Assembly: GCA_000310025.1 (NCBI GenBank)
Contig: FN649742.1
Coordinates: forward strand, 4,188,559 to 4,227,187
Direction of reading: 5' to 3'
Source of the DNA: Ectocarpus siliculosus
Taxonomy: Eukaryota; Sar; Phaeophyceae; Ectocarpales; Ectocarpaceae
Length of the DNA: 38,629 nucleotides
The position numbers and the translations under genes are program-made. The notes below the pieces were generated by a model. The model was not told where the DNA came from. It searched no databases and saw nothing but the letters and a program-made list of their open reading frames with translations. How positions within the stretch are numbered: the first letter of the stretch is position 1; each line of letters opens with the position of its first letter. Of the stretch, positions 6,480-29,553 are shown piece by piece.

Positions 6480-16398
<9,919 letters not shown>

Positions 16399-21554: not shown

Positions 21555-22067
21555 TCACAGCATCATCATGTCGTCGTCGTCCTCACGACCACCACCACCC
21601 CCTCCGCCGCCAGCGCTAACACCCCGACAGCGCGAGCCCCCTTCTCTCTCCCTGCCGCCAGCTTTCGCCTTCCCCCTCCTTTCCTGAGGCGCGCCGCTGC
21701 GCTTGCTTGATCGGCCGCCGCTCGTCACCGCCGTGGGAACAGCGGTCTTGCTCTTTGAGTCCCGATTCCCTCCGACCCCACCACAGCCGCCTCCAACTCG
21801 AACTCCCGCGTCTCCTCCCCGCGTAGCAGGGCTCTTTCCCCGTCCACTCTGTCGTTGTTTTTGCTGCTGCTGCCTTTGTGGGGTTTCTGCGAACCTCAGG
21901 CTGACCTCCCGCATTTTGGCGGGTTGCCGCTGCTGCTGCTGATGTTGAGAGGTCCCTCTTGCTGCCTCCTTTGTACTGCCCCCCAACCCGCCTATTGTGG
22001 CCCTCCGCGGCATGCTGGATGAAGATGAAAAAGGCGGAAGTGTGGCTGACAAGAGGGACGGCGAACT
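21555..22067 (-). CDS. Candidate last exon of the M1AP-like gene (low-complexity tail)
   Basis: The minus strand is open for 171 codons from 22067 to the stop at 21555. The product is rich in Ser, Gly, Gln, Arg and Lys and ends in a Gly tract and DDDD. A CAG acceptor at 22068-22070 gives phase 0, matching the phase-0 donor CGG|GTGAGC at 22749/22748 of the preceding exon. The C-terminal part of human M1AP is also a Ser/Arg/Lys-rich low-complexity tail, which is weak support. Against it, the acceptor lacks a clear pyrimidine tract because it follows a CAG repeat. The alternative is that the upstream exon reads on to its own stop at 22458. Confidence 0.4.
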   Translation of the reverse strand, partial: SSPSLLSATLPPFSSSSSMPRRATIGGLGGSTKEAARGTSQHQQQQRQPAKMREVSLRFAETPQRQQQQKQRQSGRGKSPATRGGDAGVRVGGGCGGVGGNRDSKSKTAVPTAVTSGGRSSKRSGAPQERRGKAKAGGREREGGSRCRGVSAGGGGGGGGREDDDDMMML

Positions 22068-22080
22068 CTGATGTCGCCTC

Positions 22081-22117
<37 letters not shown>

Positions 22118-22748: not shown

Positions 22749-25700
22749 CCGATCTGGGTCGCAGCCGAGCCTGCGGTTCGCACTCACGCCGCCTACGCCA
22801 GCGCCAGCATTGCTCGCCGCCCTCGCTGTTCTCGGCGCTGCCGCCACGGTGCCGCTAGTAGAAGTGCGCCCCTGTTGGGGCTGGTGCCGCTGAGACGCAA
22901 GCAACTCGAACAGTCCGCTCGAGTGCTTCAGCGGATTGTACGTGCCGGTGTCTAGCACCTCGAGGCTGCCGCGGTGGGATGCATTGGGTAGGGTGGGGAG
23001 AGGTCGAGGACACGCCGGAGACGGAGGCGTTCGGGACGAGAGCGTAAGACAAACGAAAAACGCCGTTATTATGCGGTTTTGCTCCTGTGTGGGCGTTTTC
23101 ACCAACACGTCGCCTCTGTTCGACCGACCGCCACAAACGTTAGAGCAAAGATTCGATAGATAAAAAGTAGCATGGGGGCCAAGAACCGTGACCGAAAACG
23201 AGACAATTTCTGCATACCAAAAATATCACACACACACACATCAACGCAAAAAAATATACTTCTTGCTTAGTCAAAAACATAGAAACGAGGGAGGGTACCT
23301 GGCGGAAGCGGCCGCCCTTTCAACGGAAAGCTCCGACGCGACATTCGAGATGCTGTTCACGCTTGTTTCGACCGCCTCTCCCTCCTCCAGGACCTCTTCC
23401 TTCGTCGCCAGGCGGATCAGCAGCCCCCTGTCTGCCAGCATCGCATCCGCGGGGCCCCCTTGTTGCGCTCTCGGTGCGCCGAGGGCAGCAGCAGCAGCAG
23501 CAGCGGGGTCTTGTGGAGGGGTTTGGGGCAGCAGCAGCCACCGCTCCTGCGACCGTATTAGGTCCCAGGGGGAGAGGGGGGGGGGGGTCAAGCGGCGTCC
23601 CGAGTCCTGGCTGCGTCCGCACTATGAGGTCGCATCATCCATGCCGTAAATTTCCAGGTTGGTCCTCGTGTTTTGTACCCCACCTCGACAAACAGGGGTC
23701 TAGGTAGCGCCACCCGACATTCATTCCAAACGATCACCAGCGAGAAGCGAAAGCGTAGAACAATGACAACGCAGGTAGTTGGGCGTTCAACCTCTTACCC
23801 TATGAGCGGCAACCGGTTGACCAAAACGCGCCACCGCTAGTTTACTGTCATACTGATCGACAGAGGTATTTTTTTTCGTTTATCTTCAAGAAACGAAAGC
23901 AAATACATTCCCCATCCATAGGCCCTATCAATAGGTGGGTCTTCACCTCGAGGGAAGTGGAGGGGTGTCGGAGGGAAAGGAGAAGGCCCATGTCGCGCTC
24001 GTTCAGCTCGGCGCACACTGCCATGAACAGCTTCCTGACCCCCCCCGAGAGGCACAGCGACAACAGGGGAGAAGGTCCGCGGTGACGGCGGCGACGGGGG
24101 GTAACGCCGAATGAGTCGGTGGGCGTGTGGATGGCGGGTCAGTACGGTTTGCTTCGTCGATGGCGTTTGCTTCCCTCTACGCGTCCGTACGCGCGAAAAG
24201 CACGCGTTAAGACCAAGCGCGAGGCGATCGGTATGGGCGAAAACAGGGGCTGAGCCTATATCTCCAAGGAACGCCTTGTGTCCGTACACCTCACCTGTTG
24301 GCCTGGGAGTGTTGACGGGACCCTTGGATACGGGACGGGATGCACAGTAGCGGATCCCCCCGACACAACCCCTGGTCCAAGGTATCCAATACCACGCCCT
24401 GGGGGGGGGGGGGGGGGGGGGGGTACTCATAGTCGTGCATGCCGTAGTCGTTAGACCATTGACCTCGCATCCCTACAAAGCCGGGACGGAGCACGTCGGG
24501 TTCTCACCGGACCAGGCTCTCACATCACCAAGCGCGAAGCGCCGTGAGGTATTCGGCGAGTCGCATGAAGGGTGCGCTGCATCCTGCTACAAGGGTGTTC
24601 GGCATCTTGTGCTTGCTTCCTTGCGTAGGGATGACAGCTGCGTATGACTCACTTTATTTTCTGGTGCTTCCACTTCCAGAGACAGTTGTAAGCACTGTGT
24701 AACTGCCTCGAGGATGCTTGACCATTTTAACACATCGTGGTGCGATCATCCCCCTTGCGCGGAGTGAGGGTTTTCGACCCCGCTCAACATGATCTACTCG
24801 ACCACCATTCATGGTTACCGCAAAAACAAAAACAGAGGTAAAAAAACCCGGAAACCTGGTTGCCGAGTTCACGAAGTGAAGTGGCTTGTTTTACAACGTC
24901 GTTGCCAAGCGACGAAAACCCCATCCTGATGGCAAACACCGGGGGGGGTGGCTCGTTTTACAACGTCGTTGCCAAGCGACGAAAACCCATCCCCGATGGC
25001 AACCCCCGGGGGGGGGGGGGGGTCAAAAAACGACAAGCTTGCGTCACCGTAGAGCAAAGGGGGACAGCGGACAGCGGTGGTAGTGATGCCGTCTTCAACG
25101 ATATAGCAGGAGGTGAGGTGCGTGCCGACTGAACGTATCGGTTCAGTTACAGAGTAGGGAGGGTTGCGACGAGTGACATGTATATATACTTTCTATCCAC
25201 TCCGCTGGAGAACCAAGAAGAAAAAGCGGAACAACAACAAAAAATATAACCGACCACCTTCTTTCGTGAAAGCTTGCTGCGTGGAAAGTGGGCGGAGTTC
25301 GGTCGCCTTGTCGTAAAAAAATCGCGAAATGCTAGAAAAGCATACGTATGATGAGGAGCAGGATACAAGCCAAAGTTTCTCCTTCAATGAAGAAAGTGGC
25401 GCCGTAGCATTGTTTCATCGGAACGAAATCACGGACCAATCGGGCAGGCAGGTCCCACGAAGCGTATACTCGAGAGTGACCACACGCCATGTCAGGACAC
25501 GCTGCCTTGTGACTAGAGGGCTGTGCGACTGTTTTCTGAGAACTACAAGGAAACCAACGATAGATCAAAACAAAACCTCATTCACTACCGGTGCGGAGTT
25601 GCACTTTCTCATACTGACAATATCTTCTCTTGCTTCTATTTGCGATAGAACGTTTCGTGAAAGCTGATGGCATCGTCCACGAACCAACGCTCTCCTATAT

Positions 25701-28700
25701 TTTTTCTCCCGCGTTGCACCAGGTGGTTCGACGGAGAGAGAGTGAGAGAGAGAGTGAGAGAGAAGAAAGAGAGTGAGAGTGAGAGTGAGAGAGAAGAAAG
25801 AGAGTGAGAGTGAGAGAGAAGAAAGAGAGAGGGAGCCCCGGCAGCACCCTCCCGTTCGACCCGATCCATACCTCTCTTTTCGACCGCGCTCCACAACCAA
25901 AGACCAAACAAACAATAACAGGAGCAGACGTAGCGCTCCATGCGTTGGCCAGCCGGCTACAATACCCTTTCCTCCTCTGCCCCCACCCCACCGTCCCCGG
26001 TGCGTCTCACCTGGACGACCTTCATATTGGAAAACCTGATGGTATCACACGGCAGCACGAAAACACGACGAATTCAAAAGAACGGCATCAGCAACAGGTT
26101 GTATTCGGGGGGGTGCGTGGGGTGGGGGGGGGGAATCACCACCTTTCGCAGGCGGCGTTCACGCGACGGTTTTCTCCGTCGCACGCACCAAGCGAAACAA
26201 ACTTCCCACGTCCCCATCCAACTGACCCCTTCCGCGATGGTGCAAAACCTACAGTACCGACAAAAGAGAGAGCACTTACCCCTTGTGCAGCAGCGACGCC
26301 GGGGAGCCGGGCGACGACTTAGGCAAGACCCGGCTTTGGTCCAGCAGGTAGTGAGTCATCTCCACCTGTCCAACAACAAAGCGCGCCGTACAGTGCGTGC
26401 GCATCGGGCCGCGCGCGCGGGGGCGAGGGAGGGGGTCGAGTCATGAAGAAGACATGCTGCCTGGTTGCTGTGAAGTTTATAGTTGCTGTACCAGCCGCCG
26501 TCAGATGAACGAGGTAGGATGCGCACGTAACACGCACCTCGCGGGTCGTGACCGAGGAGGAAATTCTCGCAAAAAATGGACTCAGCCTCTTGAGTGGATC
26601 AGGTGCAAGCTCCTCTCTCGTGAGAGTCCGCTCGATGTTGACGGCCGTAAGGTTCGAAACATGGTACCTAGCAGAGGCGGAGATTTCATATGACAAACGT
26701 AGATATCTGGATTTGTGATAGTATTTAGGTACAACCAGGCGATCTTGACCGATGTACCTCGATGGTGACGCCGCTGAAGGTCTCTGTCGCCGGCAAGCGG
26801 AGAGAGCAGGCCTGCCGCGGGGAAGAGTCTCTCAGCCAGCACCGAAGCTGGGAATCGAACATGGCCGCCGTGTTATCGATGAGGTCCTTTTGCAGGCCAT
26901 TGTGGCGTAGACAGATGGACAGGCAAGGCACAATAGCAATGAGCGGAGGCAGAAGCATCTGACGTCGGTGAAGCGTTTGTGTGAATTGTATATTCACATG
27001 ACAACCACCGCTATTGTTTTTCCTCACCATAGTTACGTTCGGTGTCTGAAACATCCATATTTGCGGTCGGAGCAACACGCGCGGAGGATATCACGGGTCC
27101 CTTAGTGTGCAATCATATCACGGTACCCCCCTGATCGTCTGTGCCATTTCAAAGACGCTAAAGCTCGTTCATTAAGCATGAAGCTTGCTTGCGGCAAACA
27201 ATGTTACTGATTGCAGCAGGCAACCGGGTGGAAGTTCAGTACGAGAGAGAGAGACAAGACAGGGACAGAGAGAGATAAACAGACAGGCAGACAGAGAGGC
27301 AGGCAGAAAGACAGAGAGAGATACTCACAAGGAGACCCAGAGGTGGAGAGAGAGAGAGAGACAGAGAGAGAGACAGAAAGACAGAGACAGAGACAGACAC
27401 ACACAGAGAGAAAAAGAGTAAATATCCAGCCAGGAGCTGCGTTCATGCACTAGTGCACGTAGGTCCCGTTGTGACAAACAAACGAAAAACTTACGAGCGC
27501 GAACGCCCTGCCCCGGTCCTTGGCCCCCTCCCGAAGCCGTTGAAGTCCGTTCCACCCGGTCAGCGGGTCCGACGCCCCCGCCCCACCAACGCTGCAGGAA
27601 GAAGAGCCCACCACCTCCACGAACACCAGCGAGATGCGAGGCACCGGCGGGGCCTGCTGCGTCCCCAGGGCCTCGGCGGTCTGGGAGAAGAAGCGAGCCT
27701 CGTTCGCCGAGTCTTCGCCCGCGAGCATGAGGTCGGTCGTGAGGACGACTATCTGGTGTGTGCATGTACCCATCGATCGTACGCACGCGAGGTTTCCGAT
27801 TGTTCCAGGGGGTGGTAGTGGCGCGCGTTGGCGATGGGCAGAGTTTGGGTTGGGTGTCTCTGTGTTGCGTATGATTTTATTGCACCAGTCGAGAACATCT
27901 GTCGAACAGGGCACACAAACGGCGGAGGCGCAGCATCCTGCCTCTGACGAGGGTCGGTTTCCGAACCTCGATACAGCCTTGGCAAGCAACCAAAAGGCGA
28001 GTCGCCAACCCGTCGTCAACACGAACTTTGGAAAAAGCTCTTGGCGCAATATCTCTCGTGCTACCCTCTTTCGGCGCGCACGCCTTTCGCTAGTGCGGAG
28101 CAACAGACCTTGGAGAATACGGGATAGGGGTGTTCTCCAGACGCGCGAAACCTGAGATAGCTGTAGTAGGTCCCCGCACAATGCCCTCATCACGTTAATA
28201 AGTATGTCTCTTATTGTGGGACCATGCTCTATCGCATGGGGGGAGGCGTGGGAGTCACCTCTTCCAGAGCGCGTTCTCGGATCCTGGTCGCGGTGAGGGT
28301 GGCGTCGATCAGAAACTTCCACCCGAACCCGTCGCCGTAGCCGTTCTCCGGCACATCTACCTGTGGGGAGGGAGGCATCAAAGCGACCGGACGGGCGAGG
28401 TGGTTTCCAACGGAACCTTGGCGCGGCCTCCATTTACAGAGCAGGAGGGGAGAGCGGAGCGCGGGAGCTGCAAAGAACTGGCCAGCCTGGAATGCCTGTC
28501 TTTTACTACGATATGAACGCCTCCTTGCCGAAGGCTATCTGCTTGCTGCGTTTGCGCGACGGGTGGGGGATGGCGGCCATCCCCCCCCCCACACACGCAG
28601 GAGAGAGAGAAGCGCCCCGCACCGACATTCGTTTGGATGCAGCTGGCATGCTGCAGTGCCGTTGGTTATCCCTCACCGTGTGGGGGATGCCGTACTGGGT

Positions 28701-29553
28701 GACCTGCCGTATTGGGTGACCTACCGTACACCTCTGTCGGACACGGCACACAGCTTTGGCAAACACGATCTGCACATTTTCGTTGGGAGATTTCACCCCT
28801 CTCCACACAAACCGATACCTATGTAGCACACACACCGGGTACCGCGCGAGGTACAAAGTGTGCGTATGACACGGGGGGACCAGGTGGGGACGTACCAATC
28901 GCGCGCACGACACGTCTGCGGGGGTGACGGGCCTTCCTCGGCAGACAACTTGCACCATCTTGCCCTGGCTGCCGGTGGGGACGATCAGTCCGGAGGGCGC
29001 ATCCACGAGCTGCACTCTGCCCAGAGCGCAGCAACGCGACAGCAGCTGCTTCGCGTTCTCTGCAGCGCGGCGCAAGTGGATTGAAAATAACGGTGAAACT
29101 AGGCACATACCATCCTTGGGTGTAGAACACGTTTGCCAAGCAGTGACTACAACTGGTGTGTGTGTTGAAAGGCGAGCTCATGTGCTGCGAAAATTTGAGA
29201 TTCAAACCGAAAACATGTGTTGCGTGTCCAAGCAGCTGAAAAAAAGAACAGCAACCGTTCTTGAGGCAATATGCATGGGATCAGCAGGGTCAGGTAGTTC
29301 GTGGCAGCATTACGCAGACGACCTTCTCCACCCACCCCACTCAGCTAAATGAACCAGACTTTGTCGTCAACGGCAACCGTAGCATAGCCTGGGTAAAGTC
29401 CCATCACAACGCGCTGCAAGATACTGCTGCTGTAGATACTGCTGCGGCGGCTCTTCCGGCAAGGGCCAAAGTCATACCTAGAAACACCTCCAACCGCAGG
29501 TTGACATCGACGGCCAGAGACGACGGCCGCCGGGAATCCAGCACAACGATCAT
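22749..29553 (-). CDS. M1AP-like meiosis protein (meiosis I associated protein homologue), multi-exon
   Basis: Exons read from the minus strand: 29553-29478, 29059-28896, 28360-28259, 27752-27495, 26886-26750, 26667-26538, 26365-26280, 26035-26011, 24398-24295, 24034-23947, 23546-23299, 22965-22749. Phases agree throughout. The ATG (29553) opens MIVVLDSRRP. Anchors that match my recollection of vertebrate M1AP, in order: IVVLTTDL and a downstream LVFVEVV; LIDNTAAMFDSQLRCWLRDS; VVLDTLDQGLC; KLFMAVCAEL; ERWLLL; LDTGTYNPL followed about 18 residues later by QGR. Vertebrate M1AP is a ~530-residue protein needed for male meiosis I and linked to crossover factors. This product is about 545 residues to the end of the twelfth exon, longer with the tail exon. 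The donor at 26749 (GTCAAG) is atypical. The gene itself is well supported by splice structure; the family name rests on memory and needs a profile search. Confidence 0.72.
24401..25022 (-). repeat. Dispersed ~600 bp repeat, copy C, abutting an M1AP-like splice acceptor
   Basis: Reverse-complement copy of the repeat at 481 and 9498, lying in the intron 24399-26010 of the M1AP-like gene and so in the same orientation as that gene's transcript. In element orientation it starts in the C-run at 25022-25008, has two head subunits and ends with GACTATGAGTAC plus a run of more than 20 C. That run is followed immediately by AG and then the coding exon beginning at 24398. The element's terminal C-tract therefore is the intron's polypyrimidine tract. 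Confidence 0.8.
25732..25833 (+). repeat. GA-rich microsatellite
   Basis: An imperfect GAGA/GTGAGA array with internal AGAAGAAAGAGAGTGAGAGT repeats, in the same M1AP-like intron as repeat copy C. Open frames through it on either strand are artefacts of the repeat. Confidence 0.85.
27243..27415 (+). repeat. GA/CAGA-rich microsatellite
   Basis: A long purine-biased array of GAGA, CAGA and GACAGA units ending in an ACAC tract, in the M1AP-like intron 26887-27494. On the transcribed sense (minus) strand it is CT-rich. No coding role. Confidence 0.85.

Follow-up and report, generated by a model that had tools for sequence, protein, structure and literature searches.

The minus strand of the window, the 38,629-nucleotide stretch of Ectocarpus siliculosus DNA analysed here, carries a spliced gene whose product is probably a remote homologue of M1AP, as profile comparisons in both directions suggest. 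The gene itself is real, being spliced and present in other brown algae. The best explanation as a whole, namely a remote M1AP homologue of the same build that would act in crossover support during prophase I, is one that we favour slightly over its negation.

The corrected gene model runs from 29553 to 21555 on the minus strand and comprises 12 exons encoding 684 residues. Its 11 introns are 244–1612 bases long, and all of them start with GT and end with AG. The first-pass annotation had placed the gene at 22749–29553 with minus-strand exons joining in phase. The exons do join in phase with GT..AG introns, but the in-phase 12-exon reading of exactly 22749–29553 needs a 130-base stretch (26667–26538) that is not in the relatives, and P0005 has a different short insert at this position. 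The span also had to be extended, as the last exon lies at 22112–21555 and encodes a tail like those of P0002 and P0004. The features of the corrected model, with the evidence for each, are as follows.

29478–29553, minus strand: exon 1, opens with the start codon at 29553 and encodes the first strand, MIVVLDSRRP; aligned to P0001 and P0004–P0007
28896–29059, minus strand: exon 2; relatives alignment and Ascophyllum protein genome match
28259–28360, minus strand: exon 3; relatives alignment and Ascophyllum protein genome match
27495–27752, minus strand: exon 4, holds IVVLTTDL, which lines up with M1AP EITILTSQ; relatives and Ascophyllum match
26758–26886, minus strand: exon 5, holds LIDNTAAMF..CWLRDS; end corrected from relatives; Ascophyllum match
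26538–26667, minus strand: non-exon stretch on present evidence; missing from 7 of 7 relatives
26280–26365, minus strand: exon 6; relatives alignment
26011–26035, minus strand: exon 7, 25 bases; relatives alignment
24295–24398, minus strand: exon 8, LDQGLC and GxPxxxxP; relatives and Ascophyllum match
23947–24034, minus strand: exon 9, NxxxFxAxCxxL together with the preceding codon; relatives and Ascophyllum match
23299–23546, minus strand: exon 10, ERWLLLPQ and LLIRLATKEE; relatives and Ascophyllum match
22749–22965, minus strand: exon 11, TYNPLxxxxxLxxxL; relatives alignment
21555–22112, minus strand: exon 12, low-complexity basic tail, DDDDMMML end and stop codon; tail matches P0002 and P0004

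Splicing at the donor that follows GAG at 26758 gives TIE-VEM, the same as in the relatives. Exon 12 encodes the low-complexity basic tail, followed by a short stretch of REVSLRF type and finally DDDDMMML. Elsewhere in the window, on the plus strand at 7227–9020, lies an NAD-dependent (bacterial-type) DNA ligase adenylation domain (PF01653), matched over the open reading frames 7227–8522 (E 1.8e-45) and 8592–9020 (E 3.9e-9) as if spliced. A bacterial-type ligase gene within an algal chromosome is worth a look in its own right.

Relatives of the gene occur in at least four brown-algal genera besides Ectocarpus. A protein search with the gene product recovered seven relatives (E 4.2e-285 to 3.9e-78): two from Ectocarpus, one each from Scytosiphon, Ascophyllum and Discosporangium, one labelled Undpi1, which would be Undaria, and one EukProt entry. 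The Ectocarpus protein P0001 has 87% local identity in the search and 96% in the alignment, and the most distant relative, from Discosporangium, has 41–46%. A profile search extended the set to 10 algal relatives, eight of which are brown algae by name, one of those by label only. When the Ascophyllum protein was compared with the 189-Mb genome, which consists of 492 contigs and has the window on contig C17, all seven matches fell here, exon by exon, and no other place was found at E≤1. The gene is apparently single copy, because the Ascophyllum protein matches this locus alone at that threshold. Outside brown algae there was no named hit in either of the protein searches (thresholds E≤1 and E≤10), each of which scored 8000 word-sharing candidates.

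Similarity to M1AP was assessed by comparing a profile of six brown-algal proteins, five of them trimmed of low-complexity loops and inserts (A2), with a profile of 14 vertebrate M1APs (A3). The human M1AP query agrees fully with the human isoform in the database over the aligned positions; it retrieved 470 proteins at E≤10, of which 120 were covered here, the names read among them being vertebrate, and A3 was built from these. Alignment of A2 with A3 by hhalign covered 204 columns with a score of 40.6 (E 2e-4, probability 47%). None of 400 column shuffles reached this score (mean 17.4, s.d. 3.2, best 30.4), a reversed profile scored 23.4, and among 495 unrelated bacterial decoy proteins the top score was 29.0 over 19 columns. 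Seven single M1APs scored 28.0–39.3 over 119–214 columns against the algal profile; six exceeded the top decoy, whereas P0130 fell short of it. The N-terminal halves by themselves gave E 0.11, with their strands pairing in the merged alignment.

Scoring of individual sequences with the profile HMMs gave an excess in both directions. With the A2 HMM, 117 of the 120 listed vertebrate M1APs, which are mostly mammalian and not independent, scored above the best of the 495 bacterial decoys (median 9.8 bits, range 2.6–19.1; best decoy 3.1). The best reversed M1AP (n=120) reached 2.0 and the best shuffled one (n=600) 4.6. The untrimmed algal HMM gave a median of 7.35 (best decoy 1.8), and an algal HMM without the Ectocarpus sequences a median of 8.6 (best decoy 4.1). 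Scaled to 20,000 proteins, the E-values from A2 were 5e-4 for Dromiciops, the best of the 120 listed, 0.016 for a caecilian, 0.019 for the coelacanth, 0.035 for a turtle and 0.31 for the condor, and 6.5 for a human isoform without part of the core. The untrimmed HMM gave a best E-value of 0.0012 on the same scale, and values of 0.17–4.6 across the five named species examined. In the opposite direction, nine of 11 algal sequences scored 4.3–15.5 bits with the A3 HMM, the window protein 11.1, all above the highest decoy score of 1.3 (n=495); the two others are short proteins (P0008, −2.2; P0010, not reported). Among 400 shuffled algal sequences, one attained 6.5 bits against A3, exceeding the 4.3 of P0007. 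The excess is consistent in both directions, but no single species is overwhelming, and single E-values are marginal proteome-wide.

The main rival is chance: a single comparison at a score of 39 has P ~2e-5, estimated from the mean and s.d. of the decoy comparison, and correction for about 20,000 families would erase this value. The brown-algal protein would then be unrelated to M1AP, and the resemblance would be a coincidence with one family among thousands. The marginal single E-values after correction for many families, the non-significant N-terminal match and the confinement of named hits to brown algae among the word-sharing candidates scored are in keeping with this explanation. It is nevertheless at odds with the excess in both search directions, with about 200 colinear columns carrying exactly spaced shared motifs, and with controls that include shuffles, reversed sequences and real proteins, and we regard it as unlikely. 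Homology is preferred on account of the HMM scores in both directions, the colinear run of about 200 columns and the motif spacing, which together lift it above chance.

The shared positions are mostly in the C-terminal core. In the merged alignment, 24 columns are fixed for one and the same residue across the two families, whereas 200 shuffles averaged 15.5 such columns and never exceeded 23, and a separate alignment of 15 untrimmed sequences has 11 invariant columns. Within the core, both families share a W, GxPxxxxP, NxxxFxAxCxxL and YNPL-x5-L-x3-L, together with the P of WLLLPQ/YVIMPS and the L and E of LLIRLATKE/LLVKAVATRE. The W, encoded in exon 5, is invariant across the algae and the aligned vertebrate M1APs. 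Overall identity of the M1APs to the Ascophyllum protein is 18–22%. The ordered anchors on which the resemblance was originally proposed fared unevenly. LIDNT..CWLRDS, TYNPL and IVVLTTDL are in register with vertebrate M1AP, but LDQGLC is shifted by a few residues relative to the GLC/GVC of M1AP and can be matched to it only with additional gaps. ERWLLL was dropped as evidence since it aligns with the YVIMPS strand rather than with KREWLLL, and QGR was dropped since it is not conserved among the aligned vertebrate M1APs. Missense sites reported in infertile men are S50, R266, G317, P389 and L430 of M1AP (PMC8944341). One of these five, P389, is conserved in the algal sequences covering that position, and W226, at which a frameshift has been reported, does not vary among the 15 aligned sequences.

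The algal proteins end in an acidic run followed by hydrophobic residues (DDDDMMML, DDDNVMMML, DDDESMVL and HDENMML), and this end, present in four of four complete algal proteins, is possibly a short binding motif. The DDDDMMML of the window protein (21555–21579) resembles the ends of P0004, P0005 and P0006. A loose form of the pattern fits 21 of the 120 listed M1APs and 16 of the 495 decoys. The C-terminal end was not used as evidence, since only this minority of the M1APs fits even the loose pattern.

Family searches returned no competing assignment. The window protein had no Pfam family at E≤10, in a model set without M1AP, in which human M1AP itself got no match, and sequence searches of Pfam, NCBIfam and PDB gave no convincing or rival family. 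Stray weak rows (best E 0.0028, 0.0049 and 0.21), each involving a single member or chain, were taken as chance. The precomputed Pfam domain PF28287.1 is found on the listed vertebrate M1APs and on none of the 10 algal proteins, so the latter are described as M1AP-like rather than as proven members. A search of the whole genome with coelacanth M1AP did not find this locus; the single weak match, at E 0.99, fell on a different contig, contained a stop and was set aside. The profile searches suggested at first reading support the M1AP assignment in part: both directions exceed the controls and no rival family appears, but the relationship is remote and single E-values are marginal.

Granted homology, a meiotic role is likely. 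In mouse and man, M1AP is described as interacting with SHOC1, TEX11 and SPO16 (the ZZS complex) and as supporting class I crossovers (PMC12162868 and PMC13245411). Ectocarpus meiosis takes place in unilocular sporangia, and SPO11, DMC1, HOP1 and RED1 are expressed in sporophytes (PMC12678776). During prophase I in these sporangia, the algal protein would serve as an accessory factor, stabilising crossover intermediates. Its predicted build would be like that of M1AP, with a VWA-like N-terminal domain, a Ku-like barrel, a C-terminal part and a disordered tail.

An M1AP homologue could also serve outside meiosis, for example in Ku- or INTS14-like DNA repair or RNA processing, with animals having recruited M1AP to meiosis. 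The description of M1AP as Ku70/80- and INTS14-like (PMC11377751) is compatible with such a history. So is the genome search, in which exon-by-exon searches for the ZIP4, SPO16 and SHOC1 families gave no usable hit and the Zip2, Zip4 and Spo16 families went undetected, although no control genome scored above its cut-off either, so that the search had no working positive control. Diatoms, likewise stramenopiles, are reported to be without ZIP genes (PMC4647503). The one ZIP4/SPO22-family match, a weak one in a long open frame (L001, C6:1215534–1215842, E 0.69), was rejected, as by eye it is a P-loop NTPase followed by many TPR-like repeats. Against a non-meiotic role, the M1AP functions described in mouse and man in the sources above are meiotic. 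In addition, the genome has a MutS-family place that shares 53% identity with an MSH4 stretch across 57 residues, with one stop inside the match; it is possibly MSH4. We consider a non-meiotic homologue rather unlikely and retain the meiotic homologue as the preferred reading.

Descent from a different VWA/Ku-type protein, with the algal gene as a diverged paralogue of INTS14 or Ku70/80 for example, would likewise fit the architecture proposed as common to M1AP, INTS14 and Ku (PMC11377751), and a family search of the genome, made without a positive control, found no separate algal INTS14. This origin is highly improbable. The window protein has no Pfam VWA, Ku or IntS14 match; Ku is absent from the window protein at E≤10 and from the six members, and neither the IntS14 barrel nor its C-terminal domain matches the algal family, whereas INTS14 itself matches both models. 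INTS14 is decoy-like against the algal profile (E 0.1; −0.5 bits) and against a joint algal and M1AP profile. The test of INTS14 against the algal family is weak, because INTS14 is unmatched by the M1AP profile too (E 0.38). The Ku-domain hits of the genome sit on other contigs, at C25:969278–970303 (minus strand) and C32:796173–798183 (plus strand), one match passing the Pfam cut-off, and these loci are presumably Ku70 and Ku80.

According to a published statement, conservation of M1AP reaches no further than fish. In the literature searched, no paper linked M1AP to HEIP1, to Arabidopsis and ZMM, or to Ectocarpus, and among the titles listed by a broader search none concerned M1AP outside vertebrates. 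If true, a stramenopile homologue would overturn the fish-only conservation and surprise specialists, and this fertility factor would be far older than described, which suggests great age and patchy retention. We see an even chance that M1AP is an ancient eukaryotic Ku-like crossover partner, predating the split of animals and stramenopiles and later lost or unrecognisable in many lineages. Brown algae would then provide a non-animal system for studying M1AP, and Ectocarpus, whose meiotic axis proteins are under study already (PMC12678776), would be the species in which to test it.

Compared with M1AP, the algal protein has a core of similar length and a colinear C-terminal two thirds, including the W, the GxPxxxxP, NxxxFxAxCxxL and YNPLxxxxxLxxxL motifs, and the residue facing human P389. 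It differs in its low identity of 18–22%, in an N-terminal half that is not significantly alike, in the long low-complexity basic tail with its acidic-hydrophobic end, and in the lack of an annotated Pfam M1AP domain on the 10 algal proteins. Its likeness to INTS14 and Ku70/80 would lie in the architecture proposed for M1AP (PMC11377751), and the algal family differs from both in having no sequence match to either.
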